Positions 1 to 7,204 of a DNA stretch of 7,204 bases are shown piece by piece. The first letter of the stretch is position 1; every line of letters starts with the position of its first letter. This DNA comes from an uncultured Anaerolineaceae bacterium (GTDB lineage Bacteria > Chloroflexota > Anaerolineae > Promineifilales > Promineifilaceae), in the NCBI GenBank assembly GCA_937967805.1, contig CALBTC010000088.1, forward strand, positions 1-7,204. Direction: 5' to 3'. The translations under genes were made by a program, and so were the position numbers. Under the pieces are notes generated by a model, which worked only from the letters and a program-made list of their open reading frames with translations, had not been told where the DNA came from and did not search any database.

Positions 1-94
1 GTAGTCAATTAGTAATCAATTCAGCTGCACAAACCTTACCGAATCTGCCACCTTTTGTTTGCTGCCTGGCTCTGATTTGCATAAGATGGACGCT

Positions 95-850
95 ATGTAT
101 CCCATTTTGACGCGATTGGGTCCATTTTTTATCTACAGCTACACGGCCGTTTTTACCGTGGGTTTTCTGTTCGCCTGGGTCGTTACCCAACGCCAACCGG
201 CGCAACAAACATTGCCTGCCTGGCGGGATGCGGCGCTGAATATTTTGCTGCTCGGCTGGCTGGGAGCGCGGATCAGCTTTGTCTGGTTGAATTGGAGCTA
301 CTTTGCCGAACGGCCGTCTGAACTGCTGCAACTGTGGCAAGGCGGGCTGACTGCTTTTGGCGGATTAGCGGGCGGTTTGCTCGGCCTGGGGCTGTGGTGC
401 TGGTGGCAGAAACGGCCGTTCCTGGCCTACGCCACCCTGTTTTCCCCAGCCGTTTTGCTGCTCATCATCGCCGGCTGGGCCGCTTGTTGGGTCGACGGCT
501 GTGCTTACGGGGCAACCACCACGCTAGGCCCGCTGTCCGCCGACCTGCCGGACCATTTTGGTGTTTTTGCTGTGCGCTATCAGACCCAACTGCTGGGAAT
601 TGGACTCAATTTACTGGCCCTGGTTTTTGTACTGCTGTGGCAGCAGCGATGGGGCAACGGCCGTCTCTTTGCCCTCACCCTACTCCTGGCCGGCCTCATC
701 CATTTTGCGCTCACCTTTTTGCGGGGAGACAGTGTGCCCACCCTGGCCGGCTGGCGCCTGGACAGTTGGCTGGCGCTGATTTTCGCCATTGTGGGATTGA
801 TCCTGTTACAATACGGCCGTCTATCAAAGAGTAAGCAAGTGGGCAAGTAG
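95..850 (+). CDS. Lgt-like polytopic membrane protein (probably not an active Lgt)
   Basis: A 251-residue hydrophobic protein with about seven membrane segments that follows the layout of prolipoprotein diacylglyceryl transferase (Lgt), the inner-membrane enzyme that moves diacylglycerol from phosphatidylglycerol to a lipobox cysteine. Family landmarks are the start MYPILTRLGPFFIYSY, the GARI motif at residues 57-60, the WQGGLTAFGGLAGG loop at 81-94, and GWAACWVDGCAYG at 127-139, which sits where true Lgt has GR-x-x-NF-x-N-x-E-x-x-G. The Arg, Asn and Glu expected there are Trp, Cys and Cys, the conserved His of the HGG loop is absent, and the late Arg/Glu pair reads as His and Thr. I therefore infer a divergent paralogue of unknown activity. 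The start is uncertain: TTG 59 and ATG 86 are in frame, but ATG 95 begins right at the family homology. The last codons and stop lie inside a tandem repeat. Confidence 0.7.
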   Translation: MYPILTRLGPFFIYSYTAVFTVGFLFAWVVTQRQPAQQTLPAWRDAALNILLLGWLGARISFVWLNWSYFAERPSELLQLWQGGLTAFGGLAGGLLGLGLWCWWQKRPFLAYATLFSPAVLLLIIAGWAACWVDGCAYGATTTLGPLSADLPDHFGVFAVRYQTQLLGIGLNLLALVFVLLWQQRWGNGRLFALTLLLAGLIHFALTFLRGDSVPTLAGWRLDSWLALIFAIVGLILLQYGRLSKSKQVGK

Positions 851-904
851 GCAAGTGGCAGGTGAATTCATAGCACCTGCAAACCTGCAACTTGCAAACC
901 TGCA
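835..904. repeat. Octamer tandem repeat with inverted counterpart
   Basis: Three octamers (GCAAGTGG, GCAAGTAG, GCAAGTGG) run from 835 to 858. After a short AATTCATAG loop the complementary words follow: CACCTGC at 874-880, and TGCAAACCTGCA exactly duplicated at 878-889 and 893-904. Positions 843-864 pair imperfectly with 874-895 (15 of 22 positions, with both 6-7 base ends perfect). The element contains the TAG stop of the Lgt-like gene and fills the gap before the amidase gene. There is no U-tract, so it is not a classical terminator. Confidence 0.6.
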
Positions 905-914
905 CACATAACCT

Positions 915-1766
915 ATGAAACTAAAAGTTGGACTTGCCCAAATTACTCCCAAACTCGGCAACCTGGAAGCCAATCTGGAGCGCCACCTGGCCGCCATTGA
1001 AGAAGCTGCCGAAAGCGGCGTAGAGCTGCTCATCTTCCCCGAGCTTTCCCTCACCGGCTACCGCCTGCGCGACCTGGCCTTCAGCGTCGCCATCCAGCCC
1101 TCGTACAAGAACCCGATCTTTGCCCGCCTGCTGGACGCCAGCCGGGACATGGACCTGGTCGTCGGCTTTGTGGAAAGTGATAAGCGGCAAAAGTTTTTCA
1201 TCTCCGCCGCCTATCTTTCCGGTGGCGAGGTGGTGCATCTGCACCGCAAAGTGTACCTGCCCACCTACGGCATGTTCGACGAGGGGCGCTACTTTGCCTG
1301 GGGCGACGCCATTCGCGCCTTCGACACCCGTTTTGGCCGCGTCGGCATCCTCATCTGCGAAGATTTCTGGCACGTCAGCGCCGCCTACACCCTCTGGCTC
1401 GATGGGGCCGACATCCTCATTCTCACCTCCTCCTCGCCGGGGCGTGGGCTGGCCACCGAGCAAAAAATCGGCAGCGCCCGCTGGGTGGAGCACATCAACC
1501 AGGCGTATGCCAGCATGTTTACCAACTTTGTGCTGCACACCAACCGCACCGGCTTTGAAGACGGCGTCACCTTTTACGGCGGCTCCACCATCTATGATCC
1601 GGAAGGCAACCTGCTGAGCCAGGGCGCTTACTATGAAGAAGCCATTGTCACCGCCAGGCTGGATTTAAACGATATCCGCCGCGCCCGCATCCGCCTGCCC
1701 CTGCTGCGCGACGAGCGCGTGGGGCTCACCCGGCGGGAGCTGAGCCGGATTTTGAAAGACAAGTAG
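915..1766 (+). CDS. Carbon-nitrogen hydrolase, NAD+ synthetase glutaminase-type
   Basis: A 283-residue cytosolic nitrilase-superfamily amidase. The catalytic triad is complete: Glu43 in FPELSLTGY, Lys112 in LHRKVYLPTYGMFDEGRYF and Cys148 in GILICEDFWH. The KVYLPTYGxFDExRYF and ICEDFWH wording is that of the N-terminal glutaminase domain of glutamine-dependent NAD+ synthetase (NadE), which hydrolyses glutamine and channels ammonia. The ATP-binding synthetase domain (SGGxDS) is missing and none follows the stop, so this is a free-standing amidase. It could feed ammonia to a separate NadE or act on another small amide; the substrate cannot be read from the sequence. The start is ATG 915, with no clear Shine-Dalgarno site. 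It lies 64 bases after the Lgt-like gene, across a repeat, and probably does not depend on it. Confidence 0.82.
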   Translation: MKLKVGLAQITPKLGNLEANLERHLAAIEEAAESGVELLIFPELSLTGYRLRDLAFSVAIQPSYKNPIFARLLDASRDMDLVVGFVESDKRQKFFISAAYLSGGEVVHLHRKVYLPTYGMFDEGRYFAWGDAIRAFDTRFGRVGILICEDFWHVSAAYTLWLDGADILILTSSSPGRGLATEQKIGSARWVEHINQAYASMFTNFVLHTNRTGFEDGVTFYGGSTIYDPEGNLLSQGAYYEEAIVTARLDLNDIRRARIRLPLLRDERVGLTRRELSRILKDK

Positions 1767-1810
1767 ATGTATAGAGATATTTATCAGCAGATTACTCCCT
1801 TGAAAATACC

Positions 1811-1859
1811 TCACGCAAAGTCGCAAAGACCGTTTTACGCACTTTGCGACTTTGCGTGA
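1811..1859. repeat. Perfect 18-bp inverted repeat made of octamers
   Basis: The left arm 1811-1828 (TCACGCAAAGTCGCAAAG) is perfectly complementary to 1842-1859, with a 13-base loop. Each arm is two octamers of the CGCAAAG type. It lies in the 153-base gap between the amidase gene and era. The right flank is not T-rich, so an intrinsic terminator is unlikely, although the stem could still protect or end a transcript. I saw no other feature in this gap. Confidence 0.75.
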
Positions 1860-1919
1860 AATTTGTATTCGTGGGGGTGTGCCGCCGTTGATGAAATCTC
1901 CTGTGCAATGAGCAGATAG

Positions 1920-2867
1920 ATGATTATGAATGAATCAACACCTGTCCCATCTGGCTACGAGACAAGCGACGACCACCGCTCCGGTTTTGTGTCCGTCATT
2001 GGCCGGCCCAACGTGGGCAAAAGCACACTGATTAACGCGCTGCTGCAGGAGAAGATCAACATCGTCACGCCGCGGCCGCAGACCACGCGCAGCCGCCAGC
2101 TGGGCATCCTCACCACGGCCGAATACCAGATCATCTTCATAGACACGCCCGGCCTGATGCAGCCGCGCCACAAGCTGGACGAATTCATGGTGGAAACGGC
2201 CACGGACAGCCTCAACGAAGCCGACGTGGTGCTTTGGCTGGTAGACGGCAGCGAGCCCGTCGGCCCCGGCGACCGGGCCATTGCCGAGCAGTTGCAAGCG
2301 GTTGATGACACCATTCCCATCATCCTGGCCATCAACAAAAGCGACGTCACTGCGCCGGAAAACGTCATGCCGCACACCGAGGCATACCGGGCACTGGCCC
2401 CGGAAGCTGACTGGATTTTCTTCTCGGCGCAGCGGGGAGACGGCCGTTCCGAACTCCTCGACCTCATTGTGCAGGCTTTGCCCCAAGGCCCGCGCTACTA
2501 CCCGCCCGACCAGGTGACCGACGTCTATTTACGCGACATGGCTGCTGAACTGATCCGCGAACAAATTATGTTGCAGCTTCGGGATGAGATACCGTACGGC
2601 GTGGCCGTGCAGGTAGACCAGTTCAAAGAGCGCGACAACGGCGTCACTTACATCAGCGCCAACATTTTTGTGGAGCGCGACAGCCACAAAGCGATTGTCA
2701 TCGGCGCCAAAGGGAGCCAACTGCGCCAAATTGGCGCCGCCGCCCGCAAGGAGATCGAGGCCCTGCTTGAGGGCAAAGTGTTCCTGGAACTGTGGGTGAA
2801 AGTGGAACCCAAATGGCGCCGCAACGAAAACGCCCTCAAACGCCTGGGGTACAGCAGACCAGAATAA
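1920..2867 (+). CDS. era: GTPase Era, 16S rRNA/30S assembly factor
   Basis: A 315-residue Era GTPase. It binds the 3' end of 16S rRNA and helps 30S subunit maturation, coupling it to growth and cell-cycle progress. All GTPase motifs are present: G1 GRPNVGKS at 28-35, G2 around TPRPQTTR at 50-57, G3 DTPG at 75-78, G4 NKSD at 139-142 and G5 SAQ at 169-171. The C-terminal KH domain carries its GxxG loop as GAKG at 262-265, followed by the usual basic VKxxWRR-like tail. Against E. coli Era (301 residues) it has about 13 extra polar residues before G1. Starts at ATG 1920 and ATG 1926 are both possible and neither has a clear ribosome-binding site. The usual neighbours (rnc, recO, ybeY) are absent, so it appears to be transcribed alone. 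Confidence 0.97.
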   Translation: MIMNESTPVPSGYETSDDHRSGFVSVIGRPNVGKSTLINALLQEKINIVTPRPQTTRSRQLGILTTAEYQIIFIDTPGLMQPRHKLDEFMVETATDSLNEADVVLWLVDGSEPVGPGDRAIAEQLQAVDDTIPIILAINKSDVTAPENVMPHTEAYRALAPEADWIFFSAQRGDGRSELLDLIVQALPQGPRYYPPDQVTDVYLRDMAAELIREQIMLQLRDEIPYGVAVQVDQFKERDNGVTYISANIFVERDSHKAIVIGAKGSQLRQIGAAARKEIEALLEGKVFLELWVKVEPKWRRNENALKRLGYSRPE

Positions 2868-2890
2868 CGGCAGGAAATTCTTCCTATTTT

Positions 2891-2924
2891 CCGTGTCTTT
2901 TAGCTCACATCCGTGTCTTATAGC
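2891..2924. repeat. Short direct repeat CCGTGTCTT(T/A)TAGC
   Basis: A 14-base word at 2891-2904 recurs at 2911-2924 with a single T-to-A difference, giving a 20-base period just downstream of era. Function unknown. Confidence 0.5.
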
Positions 2925-2931
2925 ATAATCC

Positions 2932-2989
2932 AGATTGGACCAATTTCTGTAACCACACAGGTTGTATCCCAAGAAAATTGGTCCAATCT
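2932..2989. promoter_or_regulatory. Paired ATTGGWCCAAT palindromes forming a 15-bp inverted repeat
   Basis: Positions 2932-2946 are complementary to 2975-2989 (15 bp). Each arm contains its own palindrome: ATTGGACCAAT at 2934-2944 and ATTGGTCCAAT at 2977-2987. Their centres are 43 bases apart, about four helical turns. A smaller AACC-ACACA-GGTT hairpin sits between them. The layout suits two dimer sites for a looping repressor. The core resembles operators of the FadR branch of GntR regulators, which is only a resemblance. It lies about 80 bases upstream of the candidate promoter of the Tat-signal protein gene. A dispersed repeat or an RNA hairpin at the end of the era transcript are alternatives. 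Confidence 0.45.
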
Positions 2990-3024
2990 CTGAGAGGCTT
3001 AATAGTTGCATTAGGCAAAGGTGG

Positions 3025-3054
3025 TTGATCGATATAGAACATTCGTGCTAAAAT
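3025..3054 (+). promoter_or_regulatory. Candidate sigma-70 promoter for the Tat-signal protein gene
   Basis: TTGATC at 3025-3030 and TAAAAT at 3049-3054 are separated by 18 bases, which would give a leader of about 110 bases before ATG 3171. The match to consensus is moderate and there is no experimental support. Confidence 0.35.
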
Positions 3055-3156
3055 TGCCAGGGTTGGCCCAAACCGGGCGTTTGCGTTTGTTGAGCCAATT
3101 TTCTCGGGCGCATTTGCAGAAGCACGTTGTTTTGTAAGGTAACGATCACCTTCGCC

Positions 3157-3163
3157 TAAGGAG
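3157..3163 (+). promoter_or_regulatory. Ribosome binding site TAAGGAG that decides the start
   Basis: TAAGGAG is the strongest Shine-Dalgarno site in the window. It is one base from the in-frame ATG at 3165 but seven from ATG 3171, so 3171 is the likely start. Confidence 0.75.
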
Positions 3164-3170
3164 AATGGAT

Positions 3171-4220
3171 ATGACAAACCAGGATGAACAGGTAGTAAGC
3201 CGTCGCAAGTTTATTAAGGCAGCGGCGCTAACGGCCGTTGCCGCTTCCGCCACCGGCGCTGGAGCCGCCATTTACAATCAATCCACCGCCAATGACACCG
3301 TCGTCACTTCCGTATCGAACGCCGCTGCGCCAGTCATCAATACGGCCGTTTCCCCCACCACGCCAGCCAACAACGATCTCTTCACCCGGCTTGCCGCTGC
3401 CCAGGCGGAAAACGTGCGCCTGCAATCGGCGCTGGATGCCGCGCAGCGCCAGCTCGCCAGCCTCGAGCAAAACAATCAATCCACCGCCAGCAACAGCGAA
3501 GCGTTAACGGTGGAACTGAACCAGGCCAATGAACGAATTGGCGTTTTGGCCGGACTGATTGCGCTGTACGAAGAGCTAGAAGCGGTCGATGTGGAAACGG
3601 CCGTGCAAAACGGTCTCGCCAATTTCTCTGGCAACCTCGATACCATGCTGGCCGAAGTGCCCACCCTGTCTGAGAGCATTCAGATGGGGCGGCAGGCGCT
3701 GGAGAATTTTGAATCCCAGATACCGGTGCTGGACAACGGCCGTCTCTGGCTCATCGATCATCTCAGCAAAATCGAGGGATATTTCCAGGTCGTTGAACAG
3801 CTTCTGGCCGAAGCGGTGGACCGGGTTGGCCCCTTCCTGCAAATGCTTACCGACTGGTTTGATAGCGTCAAGCGCTGGCTCCCGTTTGGCATGGGGCAGA
3901 CGGCCACCACCATCATGCAATCCATCACCGATCTCATCATGGAAACGCCCAACACCCTCAGCGGGCTGGATACCAACGTGATGCAACCGCTCAACGTCTG
4001 GCTCAACCGCGACCAAAACAACGAAACGGCTCTGCACCAAACCCTCATCAAGCCCATCCGCGACGACCTGATGCCCAAGGCCGACACCACCGTCAGCAAA
4101 GTGCAGCAGATGGATGAATCGTATAAAACGGCCCTGAAGGAACCGGTGGAAACGGCCGTTGCCGGCCGGCACATCATCCGCAATTTGATCACTGAGTACC
4201 GGCAGCAGCATGGGGTTTAG
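3171..4220 (+). CDS. Tat-signal coiled-coil protein of unknown function
   Basis: A 349-residue protein I cannot assign to a named family. Residues 10-16, SRRKFIK, are a good twin-arginine motif, followed by a small-residue hydrophobic stretch at 17-34, so it is probably exported folded by the Tat system. It may be cleaved after the Ala pair at 32-33 or kept as an N-terminal anchor; there is no lipobox cysteine. A Thr/Ala/Pro-rich linker (about 36-68) leads to a predicted coiled coil at 70-136, and then a mostly helical, amphipathic C-terminal region to the end. No catalytic motif or cofactor site is visible, and a structural or scaffold role at the membrane is only a guess. It has its own candidate promoter and a strong ribosome-binding site, and converges with the ATP-grasp gene. 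It holds five ACGGCCGT octamers. Confidence 0.8.
   Translation: MTNQDEQVVSRRKFIKAAALTAVAASATGAGAAIYNQSTANDTVVTSVSNAAAPVINTAVSPTTPANNDLFTRLAAAQAENVRLQSALDAAQRQLASLEQNNQSTASNSEALTVELNQANERIGVLAGLIALYEELEAVDVETAVQNGLANFSGNLDTMLAEVPTLSESIQMGRQALENFESQIPVLDNGRLWLIDHLSKIEGYFQVVEQLLAEAVDRVGPFLQMLTDWFDSVKRWLPFGMGQTATTIMQSITDLIMETPNTLSGLDTNVMQPLNVWLNRDQNNETALHQTLIKPIRDDLMPKADTTVSKVQQMDESYKTALKEPVETAVAGRHIIRNLITEYRQQHGV
3274..3489 (+). repeat. Exact 18-bp in-frame direct repeat in the Tat-signal gene
   Basis: ACAATCAATCCACCGCCA occurs at 3274-3291 and 3472-3489, 198 bases apart and in the same codon phase, so Asn-Gln-Ser-Thr-Ala appears on both sides of the first coiled-coil part. It suggests a small internal duplication or gene conversion. 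Confidence 0.75.
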
Positions 4221-4221
4221 T

Positions 4222-4286
4222 GATCGGTAATCGGTAGGTCAGTGATCGGTAATCAGTGAAAAGTTTACCGATTACCGATTACCGAT
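4222..4286. repeat. Heptamer tandem repeat hairpin between convergent genes
   Basis: GATCGGT and AATCGGT (4222-4235), then after one 8-base unit GATCGGT and AATCAGT (4244-4257), are followed by three exact TACCGAT heptamers (4266-4286). The 14-base arm 4223-4236 pairs perfectly with either 4266-4279 or 4273-4286. It fills the gap between the stops of the Tat-signal and ATP-grasp genes, where it could act as a two-way transcription barrier, although no T-run is present. Confidence 0.75.
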
Positions 4287-4292
4287 TAATGG

Positions 4293-5510
4293 TTAAGTTG
4301 GCGCCGTGTCTAAGGGTGGGGCCACGGCCAAAAAGTCGTGGGCGAAGCGCTGGCTGTAGTCGTGGATGAGCTGCTCGACGCGCTCATGTTTTGGCGAGGC
4401 GACGATGAGGCCGGCGTGGTGCTGCTTGTGGACACGATACACAACTTCCGGGTCCTGGTAGCCGGACAAATCGGGCCATTCCTGCCGTGCCAGGCAAATC
4501 ATGACGCCGGCGTATTCCCCTTTGTCCGTTGGCACCTGGTAGTTTTCATTGCGAAGCGCGGCCGTTTCCAATTTCGCCCACTCTGCCCACAAATTAATCC
4601 CCGATGATGCCTCTACCAACTGCTCAATATTTGCGCCGCCGACACGTGCGGCCGTTTCCAAAAAATAAAAGTCGCCGTCTGCCCCCTTGATAAACTCCGT
4701 GTGGGCCACGCCGCGCTCCATTCCCAGTGCCAGAACCAGCTTGTTGTGCAGCTTGATGAGCGCCTTCGTCTCCTTGCCCTGGCGCGGCATCGTGCGGGTA
4801 ACAAAAACGCCGCCTTCATGGGCCACGTCGATGGGCGGCTGCAAATATTGGTGCGCCGAGGCAAACACAACCTTGCCCTGCCACACAATCGCATCCACAT
4901 GATAAACCGGCCCAGACACAAACTGCTCCAGCAAAAAATAAGATTGCAAATCGCCCAGCTCGTCCAGCTTGCGCCACAGCATCTCCGAATGCTCCATGCG
5001 CTTGATGCCCATCGCCCCAGCCTCGGCCCGCGGTTTGAGCAGCCAGGGGGGCGGCACCCGGCTCATGAATTCGCGTAACTGATCGTAGTTGAAGACGGCC
5101 GTAAACTCCGGCACCTTAAACCCTTCCTGCCGCGCCTTCACCCGCATCGCCAGCTTATCCCGGAAATGGCGGCTCGCCGTCTCCCCCATCCCCGGCAGCC
5201 GAAAATGCTCGCGCAGCGCCGACGCCGTCAGCACGTCATAATCATCTAGGGGGATGATTTGGTCCACAGCCCAGCCCCGCATAAAGTAAGCGACGGCGTA
5301 AATAATGTCTGGCTGGGCCGAAAGCTGCGGCATGTAAAACACCTCATCAATGCTCTCCCACGGCCACGCTTCTCCCTGTAACTTTTCCCGCGTTACCAAC
5401 ACTACCCGGCAGCCAGCCTGTTCAGCGGCAACCAAGAAGGTTGTTCCTTTAAAATAGCTTGCCAGGCACAAAATTGTCACCGGCTTTTTCTCAGAGTCCA
5501 CGTATGACAT
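4293..5510 (-). CDS. ATP-grasp family ligase
   Basis: A 405-residue cytosolic protein of the ATP-grasp superfamily, which uses ATP to make an acyl-phosphate and joins it to an amine or thiol. A Rossmann-like pre-ATP-grasp domain (VTILCLASYFKGTTFLVAAE, residues 11-30, onward to about 110) precedes the ATP-grasp fold. Candidate nucleotide-binding residues are Lys119, Lys159 in LLKP, the flexible loop AGAMGI at 164-169 and Glu195 in LLEQFV. Candidate metal ligands are Glu272 in HTEF and Glu285 in FLETAARVGG; this last motif replaces the classical ExN with ETA, as in several amino-acid ligase-like subgroups. Substrates cannot be told from the sequence, and a peptide- or amino-acid-ligase role is a guess. 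ATG 5510 is preferred over TTG 5513 because AAGGA at 5515-5519 is four bases from the former and one from the latter. It stands alone, with an operator-like region upstream. Confidence 0.85.
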   Translation of the reverse strand: MSYVDSEKKPVTILCLASYFKGTTFLVAAEQAGCRVVLVTREKLQGEAWPWESIDEVFYMPQLSAQPDIIYAVAYFMRGWAVDQIIPLDDYDVLTASALREHFRLPGMGETASRHFRDKLAMRVKARQEGFKVPEFTAVFNYDQLREFMSRVPPPWLLKPRAEAGAMGIKRMEHSEMLWRKLDELGDLQSYFLLEQFVSGPVYHVDAIVWQGKVVFASAHQYLQPPIDVAHEGGVFVTRTMPRQGKETKALIKLHNKLVLALGMERGVAHTEFIKGADGDFYFLETAARVGGANIEQLVEASSGINLWAEWAKLETAALRNENYQVPTDKGEYAGVMICLARQEWPDLSGYQDPEVVYRVHKQHHAGLIVASPKHERVEQLIHDYSQRFAHDFLAVAPPLDTAPT

Positions 5511-5540
5511 CAATTCCTTTTTAGTTTTTTACAGCTATAA

Positions 5541-5615
5541 CTACAACGAATTGGAGTGAACAACAAATTTGTTTGCGCCCGATTTAAATTCGTTAATTAC
5601 TAAAATTCGTTGTAG
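5541..5615 (-). promoter_or_regulatory. Operator-like inverted repeats upstream of the ATP-grasp gene
   Basis: CTACAACGAATT at 5541-5552 is perfectly complementary to 5604-5615. Between them lies a perfect 12-bp palindrome, AACAAATTTGTT, at 5562-5573, and ACGAATTT is repeated directly on the - strand. The DNA is much more AT-rich than the genes around it. Weak promoter-like hexamers (TTGTTC, 17 bases, TTATAG on the - strand) fall across the inner repeat. This suits a regulated promoter for the ATP-grasp gene; no regulator gene is adjacent. Confidence 0.45.
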
Positions 5616-5622
5616 CCACCGG

Positions 5623-6429
5623 TTACTGTATCAGCAGCAAAACAATCGTCACAATCGCGGCAATCGTCAGCACAAAAAAGCTGATGATAAGCAAAATCAC
5701 CAGCCAGTCGGTGTCTTGCCGGTTGATTGGACGGTAGCTGGTGGTGAGATCGGCGAGCGGTTCTTCTAATTCTTGGGGAGCGGCCTGTTCAGGGGGAACG
5801 GCCGTATCCACTAACGCCTCAGGCGGCTCCACTTCTTCCGGCATGTACTTAGCCAAAAACGCCGGCGTCAGCTCCAGTTCATCCTCACTATCCATCGCCT
5901 CAGACAACCTGGAGATAAGTTCTTCATCCAGTTCAGCCTTGGGCGCTCGGGGAGGAACTACTTCATCCGTCTCATCCTCAACCCCAGCAACCTCCACTTC
6001 TGGCGGTGCGAGCTTCCTCACCCAAACCGGCAGCTCCTGGTCCGTTTGCGTTGGGGCCACAGCCGCTCTCGCCTTCACGGCCGCCAGGGCCGACAATAGC
6101 CCTTCACTTTCAGCCAACAACTCTCGCGAACTGCGGTCAGGTGCACCCAATGGTTCAGACTTTATCACCTCAATATCGCGGGCCAGTAAATAATAGCGAA
6201 GCTGTTCCGCATCAAACATCAGATGCCCGCCGGCACGTACTTCATCCCCCTTCCCAATCTGGCCATTTTCATCAGTCTGGCAATGTAAGCGGTGGGAACC
6301 TTCTGCCAAAATGAAACCATTGCTATCTAACTGCTCAACCCGGCCCACGACAAATACCAGTCCTAACGGTAATTCGGGGGGAAGTTTAGAGGCTAAACGG
6401 CCGTTCAACCCACTAACCGAAATCTCCAT
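5623..6429 (-). CDS. Tail-anchored protein with OB-fold-like N-terminal domain
   Basis: A 268-residue protein that I do not recognise as a named gene. Residues about 22-90 (LVFVVGRVEQLD, then GFILAEGSHRLHC, then GKGDEVRAGGHLM and YYLLARDIEVI) read like a five-stranded OB fold of the kind that binds single-stranded nucleic acid or acts as a small beta-barrel adaptor. Residues 91-241 are rich in Glu, Asp, Pro and Ala and are probably disordered. Residues 242-268 are one strong membrane helix ending in Ile-Gln, so the protein is probably tail-anchored with its bulk in the cytosol. ATG 6429 is chosen over TTG 6453 because GGAG at 6436-6439 lies six bases upstream. It is divergent from the tRNA-tuf operon and 112 bases upstream of the ATP-grasp gene. 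The OB assignment is from pattern only. Confidence 0.7.
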   Translation of the reverse strand: MEISVSGLNGRLASKLPPELPLGLVFVVGRVEQLDSNGFILAEGSHRLHCQTDENGQIGKGDEVRAGGHLMFDAEQLRYYLLARDIEVIKSEPLGAPDRSSRELLAESEGLLSALAAVKARAAVAPTQTDQELPVWVRKLAPPEVEVAGVEDETDEVVPPRAPKAELDEELISRLSEAMDSEDELELTPAFLAKYMPEEVEPPEALVDTAVPPEQAAPQELEEPLADLTTSYRPINRQDTDWLVILLIISFFVLTIAAIVTIVLLLIQ

Positions 6430-6471
6430 AACCAACTCCAAAACAATGCCCAATCGCTAAATTCTTCGCCC

Positions 6472-6646: not shown

Positions 6647-6719
6647 GCCGACGTAGCTCAATTGGCAGAGCAATGCTCTTGTAAAGCATAGGTTATGGGT
6701 TCAAGTCCCATCGTCGGCT
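6647..6719 (+). tRNA. tRNA-Thr(UGU)
   Basis: A 73-base cloverleaf. The acceptor stem GCCGACG/CGTCGGC, D stem GCTC/GAGC, anticodon stem ATGCT/AGCAT and T stem ATGGG/CCCAT are all perfect. The anticodon TGT is at 6680-6682 in loop CTTGTAA. G1-C72 and C2-G71, known threonine identity pairs, are present. The discriminator base is T and CCA is not encoded. First gene of the operon, equivalent in order to E. coli thrU. Confidence 0.97.
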
Positions 6720-6743
6720 TGTTAACACATACTTATATTTTGA

Positions 6744-6826
6744 GGGTCAGTGTCCCGAGCGGCAAAGGGGGCGGACTGTAAATCCGCTGGCGATAGCCTT
6801 CGTAGGTTCGAGTCCTACCTGGCCCA
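6744..6826 (+). tRNA. tRNA-Tyr(GUA)
   Basis: An 83-base class II tRNA with the long variable arm expected for bacterial tyrosine tRNA. The acceptor stem GGGTCAG/CTGGCCC contains one T-G wobble. The anticodon stem GCGGA/TCCGC holds loop CTGTAAA with GTA at 6778-6780, and the T stem GTAGG/CCTAC encloses TTCGAGT. The discriminator is A, followed by CC but not a complete CCA. It lies 24 bases after tRNA-Thr(UGU). Confidence 0.96.
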
Positions 6827-6831
6827 CCTTC

Positions 6832-6920
6832 CAGTTTGCAGTACCCAGTTAACAGTGTTCAGTAAAAACCCTGATTTACTGATTGCGATTTACTGATTAC
6901 CAACTCACTGATTACTGTTT
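6832..6920. repeat. Heptamer tandem repeat hairpin inside the tRNA operon
   Basis: Five consecutive heptamers beginning with CAGT (CAGTTTG, CAGTACC, CAGTTAA, CAGTGTT, CAGTAAA) fill 6832-6866. They are followed by ACTG heptamers ACTGATT at 6878, 6892 and 6907 and ACTGTTT at 6914, nearly all in one 7-base phase. TCAGTAAA at 6859-6866 pairs with TTTACTGA at 6875-6882 or at 6889-6896. The element occupies the place where E. coli has its Gly tRNA. Confidence 0.75.
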
Positions 6921-6928
6921 ACCGAGCT

Positions 6929-7000
<72 letters not shown>

Positions 7001-7004
7001 TCTG

Positions 7005-7041
7005 CCCCGTCTATCTTGTACTAGACAACAGGATGGCGGGG
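7005..7041 (+). other. Stem-loop after the last tRNA
   Basis: CCCCG at 7005-7009 pairs with CGGGG at 7037-7041. Inside it ATCTTGT (7013-7019) pairs in two blocks with ACAA and GAT (7025-7034) around an ACTAG loop. The following TATTGTTGT is only loosely T-rich. It may separate tRNA processing from tuf mRNA or weaken read-through. Confidence 0.4.
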
Positions 7042-7056
7042 TATTGTTGTGAAAAC

Positions 7057-7096
7057 GGCGAGCATCACAATATTTATTATTGTTAAAAAGCTCGCC
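7057..7096 (+). promoter_or_regulatory. tuf leader stem-loop
   Basis: GGCGAGC at 7057-7063 pairs with GCTCGCC at 7090-7096, and ACAATA at 7067-7072 pairs with TATTGT at 7078-7083 inside it. A competing stem, TTGTGA (7047-7052) with TCACAA (7065-7070), cannot form at the same time as the inner helix. No T-run follows, so it is not a terminator. A role in mRNA stability or translational control of tuf is possible but unproven. Confidence 0.4.
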
Positions 7097-7160
7097 TTGA
7101 AGTGACTAAATTGGCAACATTAATTTAGATCAAACAATAAGGAACAAGGGTTTATTAACG

Positions 7161-7204
7161 ATGGCAAAAGAAAAATTTGTGCGCGAAAAACCACATGTGA
7201 ACAT
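7161..7204 (+). CDS. tuf: Elongation factor Tu, N-terminal fragment (runs off the window)
   Basis: The only codons present spell MAKEKFVREKPHVN followed by the start of another codon, the near-universal N-terminus of bacterial EF-Tu, which delivers aminoacyl-tRNA to the ribosome with GTP. The GTPase motifs lie beyond the window edge. AAGGG at 7146-7150 is ten bases before ATG 7161 and may serve as ribosome-binding site. Location directly after Thr and Tyr tRNAs supports the call (the tufB arrangement) and implies co-transcription from the promoter at 6561. Confidence 0.93.
   Translation, partial: MAKEKFVREKPHVN

Follow-up and report, generated by a model that had tools for sequence, protein, structure and literature searches.

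The palindromic octamer ACGGCCGT is, with near certainty, a highly iterated palindrome (HIP) in a phylum outside the cyanobacteria. It occurs 14 times in a stretch of 7,204 nucleotides (the window) from contig CALBTC010000088.1 of an uncultured Anaerolineaceae bacterium (Chloroflexota), and it reaches thousands of copies in the genomes of some relatives, where it fills most of the codon contexts able to encode it. On balance we incline to the explanation that this HIP is tied to a methyltransferase associated with endonucleases of the NotI family and that its sites are kept by weak selection. A first-pass annotation of the window had proposed an independent case of a HIP1-like word, in a probable Chloroflexota host, and this proposal is supported by the HIP1-like density, the near saturation and the existence of sister words built on one core.

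Within the window, ACGGCCGT is the most frequent 8-mer, the runner-up palindromic 8-mers having 2 copies each, and dinucleotide shuffles (n = 200) contained a mean of 0.11 and a maximum of 1 copy. The 14 exact copies are therefore far beyond chance, as the first-pass annotation had claimed, and its further statements, that five of the six full-length genes contain them all and that they are read in three codon phases (Thr-Ala-Val 7, x-Gly-Arg 5, Arg-Pro 2), were likewise confirmed. The genes for Lgt and at 3165-4220 hold five copies each, that at 5623-6453 two, those for Era and the ATP-grasp protein one each, and that for the carbon-nitrogen (CN) hydrolase none. The copies are:

143..150, Thr-Ala-Val in lgt
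310..317, x-Arg-Pro in lgt
412..419, x-Arg-Pro in lgt
657..664, x-Gly-Arg in lgt
813..820, x-Gly-Arg in lgt
2440..2447, x-Gly-Arg in era
3231..3238, Thr-Ala-Val in the 3165-4220 gene
3342..3349, Thr-Ala-Val in the 3165-4220 gene
3597..3604, Thr-Ala-Val in the 3165-4220 gene
3736..3743, x-Gly-Arg in the 3165-4220 gene
4152..4159, Thr-Ala-Val in the 3165-4220 gene
5095..5102, Thr-Ala-Val, minus strand, in the ATP-grasp gene
5798..5805, Thr-Ala-Val, minus strand, in the 5623-6453 gene
6397..6404, x-Gly-Arg, minus strand, in the 5623-6453 gene

All 14 of the 14 codon contexts able to encode ACGGCCGT in the six window proteins are filled by it, while 150 random letter permutations of the word fill 28 of 650 encodable places in the same proteins. 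Synonymous codon shuffling of the window genes (2 sets of 5000), for which the lgt frame was mis-set, unlike in the count of encodable sites, yielded means of 1.5 and 1.7 copies and a maximum of 7; this procedure, which had been named as a possible refutation, does not reproduce the 14 copies, and the share of them due to codon usage is about a tenth. None of the 14 copies is intergenic, against about 3 expected (P ~0.03), so that the claimed absence from every intergenic gap holds, weakly, in the window, but it fails genome-wide. In 0.68 Mb of DNA from word-rich relatives, divided into coding and non-coding parts by an open reading frame (ORF) heuristic, the long ORFs (608 kb) contain 1097 copies (1.80/kb), and the 68 kb outside them contain 67 (0.99/kb, GC 0.47). 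The gene-only placement is a small-sample effect.

Relatives were found via the CN-hydrolase, with the best 80 loci retained; the nearest by protein identity come from the metagenome-assembled genomes (MAGs) Anaerolineaceae NAT123 (locus L001, 98%) and Anaerolineae SJ142 (locus L002, 93%). Whole-genome counts of ACGGCCGT in the genomes of 21 relatives were 5,641-12,866 in nine and 4-181 in twelve. In a class sample of 396 genomes, drawn evenly and counted with the reversed word as control, 19 hold 2,984-14,867 copies at 0.99-2.1 per kb; genomes are referred to below by our own labels (G001 and so on). Together with three more they make up 22 word-rich genomes with 990-2100 copies per Mb (genome sizes rounded), in which the reversed word occurs 55-459 times. 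Intermediate counts were found in G297 (2,982), G171 (1,727) and G222 (1,189), and the remaining genomes of the class sample have fewer than 700. The comparison with a Markov background, by which the first-pass annotation had proposed to check its claim, places the word far above expectation in relatives: in 198 kb of G001 it is the top palindromic 8-mer, with 264 copies against 13 expected (order 3). Among the homologues of the candidate methyltransferase (see below) are some with the names Candidatus Leptofilum, Ardenticatenaceae or Anaerolineae, those of Ca. Leptofilum lying on contigs of 1.3 and 6.4 Mb; the classification of Leptofilum is Chloroflexota, Ardenticatenia, Promineifilales. The host lineage of ACGGCCGT belongs to the Chloroflexota (Anaerolineae/Ardenticatenia, probably Promineifilales).

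Two contigs of G001, C1 and C2 (loci L111 and L112; 16.8 and 20 kb), contain no ACGGCCGT at all, with a GC content equal to that of the rest of the MAG, and they are probably contaminant or foreign DNA. Because they are free of the word, ACGGCCGT may be an inexpensive marker, useful in binning and in detecting foreign DNA in these genomes.

The near saturation of encodable sites recurs in four larger samples from word-rich genomes. ACGGCCGT fills 236 of 287 places in G001 (a figure lowered by the two word-free contigs in that set), 247 of 269 in G375, 101 of 109 in G370 and 91 of 107 in G358 (82-93%), whereas its 63 palindromic permutations fill 1-2% in these samples and in that of G011, and 1-3% over all samples except G114 (6%). 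The effect reaches into protein sequence: per 1000 codons, the four word-rich samples have 5.6-7.2 contexts able to encode the word, and four low samples have 0.4-2.9 (pooled, 38 contexts in 31,227 codons). Flank preferences of the word were modest in the genomes sampled. Encodable contexts are used even close to another copy (60/79, or 76%, at up to 50 bp, and 301/323 at 200-1000 bp), for which reason the idea of a set-point, in which sites about 1 kb apart would suffice, is not favoured.

Copies are also conserved between relatives more often than letter-matched control words. Taking sites from both sides of each pair, the word was kept at 24/26 sites between the window and G001, at 124/139 between G375 and G251 (matched words 690/1656), at 50/68 between G375 and G358 (106/892), and at 24/29, 42/51, 44/49, 62/70 and 50/56 in five other larger pairs; over these eight pairs retention ranges from 74 to 92%, against 12-67% for the controls. 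Three small pairs gave 4/8, 4/7 and 2/3, versus 9-19% of matched words. Third codon positions inside the window words are identical to those of L001 in 34 of 35 cases and to those of L002 in 34 of 35, while outside the words identity is 69% and 63%. Among 31 single changes in words between relatives, 17 fall at an outer position (1 or 8); of the 14 that remain, 13 are transitions.

Related words with the same core, CGGCCG, occupy the place of ACGGCCGT in other lineages. The word of G011 is GCGGCCGC, with 221 copies in 150 kb against 12.7 expected (Markov), a palindromic extension to CGCGGCCGCG and 223 of 269 encodable places filled; deviations from it are not concentrated at outer positions. 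In G114 the word is TCGGCCGA, which accounts for 27 of 34 CGGCCG in 20 kb and 63 of 81 in 40 kb and fills 54 of 68 encodable places. The core without a fixed flank is found in G171, G297, G222 and G364 at 3.4-4.7 per kb (32-52 kb each), filling 177/244 encodable places in G171 and 112/162 in G297, and it is enriched in stretches of 6-20 kb from G241, G055, G134, G087, G341, G288 and G334. With core enrichment defined as a minimum of 1000 CGGCCG per Mb combined with a ratio of 1.3 or more to the control GCCGGC, 37 of the 396 class-sample genomes, read by eye from the count table, are core-enriched.

Genome-wide, G171 and G297 carry CGGCCG at 5.1 and 3.4 per kb with GCCGGC nearly absent (132 and 768), and G222 has 25,568 CGGCCG in 7.4 Mb. 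Several 5-methylcytosine (m5C) methyltransferases are present in G171 and G297, and the NotI-associated enzyme is absent from both. An m5C enzyme common to these two genomes was sought among four of their nine PF00145 matches; the best cross-pair has 44% identity, with no clear orthologue.

These features resemble those of the cyanobacterial HIPs, as far as the latter are described in the consulted parts of one paper (PMC4390886): HIP1 (GCGATCGC) and the alternate cyanobacterial HIPs are GC-rich palindromic octamers at about 1 per kb, with a range of ~500-2500 per million bases that encloses the densities found here; some lineages have swapped to words with other outer bases (TCGATCGA), as here in G011 and G114; and HIPs are tied to orphan methyltransferases, a tie that here takes the form of co-occurrence with a candidate enzyme. 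The concentration of deviations at outer positions is likewise shared, G011 excepted. HIP1 itself is excluded, the word being different and the relatives belonging to the Chloroflexota and not to the cyanobacteria. Further differences are the core (CGGCCG, not CGATCG) and the NotI-type restriction partner of the candidate's orthologues. No published account of ACGGCCGT was found among the top-ranked literature matches, with subscription journals mostly outside the search, and the main text of a study of wastewater contigs, as far as consulted, reports N6-methyladenine (m6A) and N4-methylcytosine (m4C) motifs, one Chloroflexota host among others, and no GGCC motif (PMC12772301).

The candidate enzyme is an amino-methyltransferase (PF01555) of 650-700 amino acids (aa) with an S-adenosylmethionine (AdoMet) motif I, a catalytic motif IV and a methyltransferase fold. 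It is present in 21 of the 22 word-rich genomes (18 of the 19 in the class sample, plus G002, G009 and G019) and also in G011 and G114. Of the 50 genomes that have the enzyme, 27 are core-enriched, and of the 346 that lack it, 10 are (Fisher p 4e-20, relatedness ignored; the 10 were read by eye from the count table, and the class-wide search scored three candidates per genome, so copies may be missed). A tree of the enzyme (48 rows) separates a clade of 16 rows, mostly from non-enriched genomes, from one of 32 rows, mostly from enriched ones (clade 2). With clade 2 taken as 31 class-sample rows plus G004, assigned by hand, and with G039 and G084, which lie outside the tree, counted among the others, 26 of the 32 genomes in clade 2 are core-enriched versus 1 of the 18 other carriers. 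The methyltransferase of G114 is split over two overlapping ORFs and sits on a long branch.

In its split PF01555 motifs (I, then IV), long insert and KWWARR start, the candidate is like the large methyltransferases of DUF1156 type (NF042963, PADLOC MTase_II, HmaB, PglX), but it is shorter (~660 aa) and scores 75.8 bits against the NF042963 cut-off of 1000. Distant relatives occur in nine viral loci of IMG/VR, which hold 0-2 words each, and in 133 plasmid records, all below 60% identity. Two other methyltransferase families were rejected as the common enzyme: m5C methyltransferases (PF00145) are missing from 9 of the 22 word-rich genomes, and a Dam-like one (PF02086), found in 21 of the 22 (weakly in G004), also occurs in the word-poor G006, G010, G013 and G021.

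The partner of the candidate enzyme may point to its site. A Cys4 protein directly adjoins the enzyme in 14 of 39 neighbourhoods; three such proteins, when tested, matched the Pfam family NotI (PF12183; E 4e-58 in G170, 1e-52 in G005 and 6e-11 in G011), and all 14 genomes concerned match PF12183, as do 63 of 396 class-wide. Single-sequence searches of the Protein Data Bank (PDB) with the endonuclease gave no match, and a profile matched the NotI chain 3bvq weakly (E 0.028). NotI recognises GCGGCCGC, a site that is identical to the G011 word and includes the shared core. From the co-occurrence, the family of the partner and this match between the known site of the family and the word of G011, we consider it probable that the NotI-associated enzyme sets the word. 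EagI is described as recognising CGGCCG in the parts consulted of two papers (PMC3724700, PMC4722110), one of which describes C-5 methylation at the site of M.EagI (PMC4722110), so that the present amino-methyltransferase need not be related to M.EagI.

Many Anaerolineae possess a gene pair, PF12183 endonuclease plus amino-methyltransferase, like that of NotI-type restriction-modification, but the word-rich genomes differ in their saturated sites and in that no such endonuclease turned up next to the enzyme in 20 of the 22 (including G153, which also lacks the enzyme). An adjoining endonuclease exists in G005 and G009 alone, and G019 has a weak PF12183 match away from the enzyme. The solitary methyltransferase for CGGCCG or GGCC that the first-pass annotation had recommended looking for is supported by correlation, the enzyme of the word-rich genomes mostly lacking an adjoining endonuclease. 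Among enzyme carriers, core enrichment is found in 25 of 32 without PF12183 anywhere in the genome versus 2 of 18 with it, and within clade 2 in 24 of 26 versus 2 of 6. The endonuclease of G005 has K-x-Q in place of the E-x-Q present in the 13 others aligned and, judged by this motif, may be inactive. These patterns are suggestive of endonuclease loss opening the way to saturation, with G009 and G011 as exceptions.

In the explanation that we prefer, the enzyme would methylate a cytosine within the word, and the modification would be N4-methylcytosine, because the core and its GCGGCCGC variant contain no A or T. Once the enzyme was freed of the endonuclease, or the site was fully protected from it, the methylated site could have gained a housekeeping role, for which DNA maintenance is our best guess; mismatch repair, replication and chromosome upkeep are envisaged as readers of the mark. 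Weak selection per site would then bring most synonymous positions able to hold the word to do so, with some amino-acid positions altered too, and the outer base pair would track the specificity of the enzyme in each lineage.

A number of observations weigh against this explanation. The enzyme is absent from G153, which has 6514 words, with all 20 candidates scored; it was not found in the core-rich G171, G297, G222 and G364, nor, among three candidates scored each, in five moderately core-enriched genomes. In G222, indeed, PF00145, PF01555 and PF02086 give no match at E<=0.001. Conversely, 23 of the 50 enzyme carriers are not core-enriched, and the word-poor G006 holds a contig-end fragment of the enzyme. 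Outside clade 2, carriers without the endonuclease gain no enrichment (1 of 6 without PF12183, 0 of 12 with it), and since G009 and G011 are word-rich despite an intact-looking endonuclease with the E-x-Q motif adjoining the enzyme, a genome need not lose the endonuclease to become so. Finally, the genomes share ancestry and most are MAGs whose completeness is not stated, so that significance is overstated by the tests.

Among the rival explanations, a mutational or repair drive, in which mismatch-repair bias (by a Vsr-like nuclease or GmeC-dependent repair) turns near-words into words with no benefit from the site, would fit the saturation and the spill-over into protein sequence, and such a model was proposed for HIP1 by Elhai 2015 (PMC4390886, consulted in part). 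Vsr (PF03852) is present in only 6 of the 22 word-rich genomes, however, and words one letter removed from ACGGCCGT (one-offs) behave otherwise than a strong conversion drive should make them, which is to deplete both kinds. One-offs convertible synonymously are depleted about ninefold (34 observed vs 303 expected), while those convertible only with an amino-acid change show observed/expected ratios of 0.71, 1.16 and 0.80 at positions 2-4 (2.40 at position 1), compared with 0.99, 0.94 and 0.85 at positions 2-4 in low genomes. In G011 the corresponding values are 7 vs 98 for synonymous and 0.79 overall for non-convertible one-offs. The test is coarse, control words scattering from 0.43 to 1.49 across sets (0.43 to 1.32 in G011), but only the synonymous one-offs are clearly depleted; drive is thus disfavoured, and we regard it as unlikely. 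Both selection at sites and site protection are compatible with the pattern. Under the latter, ordinary mutation makes words, and those that have become methylated or bound have a much lower mutation rate and accumulate without function, as the high conservation between relatives, the near-normal frequency of non-convertible one-offs and the high usage even near another word would allow; all eight positions are held, however, including A and T, which cytosine methylation alone should not protect. We rate protection slightly below drive.

The word could instead be bound by an abundant nucleoid or other DNA-binding protein, with the methyltransferase a bystander, which would account for G153 and for those core-rich genomes that lack the enzyme. 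Against it stand the family of the partner, since NotI, the type member, cuts the G011 word, and the outer pair, which varies among related lineages that have the core in common; we judge it improbable. A DNA uptake sequence maintained by biased transformation has in its favour a density close to that of known uptake sequences, but with a palindromic octamer and only modest flank preferences it seems very improbable. Codon usage or base composition alone, accounting for 1.5-1.7 copies in the window, is refuted by the shuffles, the Markov expectation and the saturation relative to permuted words, and hardly deserves consideration.

More broadly, and as a tentative idea that we would sooner doubt than assert, HIPs could be domesticated restriction-modification sites: a NotI-type methyltransferase would lose or outgrow its endonuclease, the site would saturate and reshape proteins, and shifts in outer-base specificity would rewrite thousands of sites. 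If this were true, the Chloroflexota would display the stages together, namely the pair without enrichment, the solitary enzyme with hexamer enrichment and the solitary enzyme with an octamer. The Chloroflexota add an independent case in which saturation is nearly complete, the words are three and related, and relatives carry a gene pair whose type is known; the methylation hypothesis can thereby be tested by comparison.

The six proteins of the window, scanned against Pfam, and its remaining features are:

59..850, plus strand, lgt, prolipoprotein diacylglyceryl transferase (PF01790), 5 words
915..1766, plus strand, carbon-nitrogen hydrolase (PF00795), 0 words and 0 codon contexts able to encode the word
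1920..2867, plus strand, era-like GTPase (MMR_HSR1 and KH_2), 1 word
3165..4220, plus strand, protein of 351 aa whose start looks twin-Arg-like by eye, without a Pfam match, 5 words
4293..5513, minus strand, ATP-grasp protein (PF13535, slightly below cut-off), 1 word
5623..6453, minus strand, 276-aa protein with a hydrophobic stretch at the C-terminus (by eye), no Pfam match, 2 words
6647-7204, tRNA-Thr, tRNA-Tyr and tRNA-Thr, then the apparent start of an EF-Tu gene (by eye)

Between the genes, inverted or direct repeats were noticed by eye at 1811-1860 and 4221-4290 (CGCAAAGTCGCAAAG-like and CGGTAATC-like, respectively).

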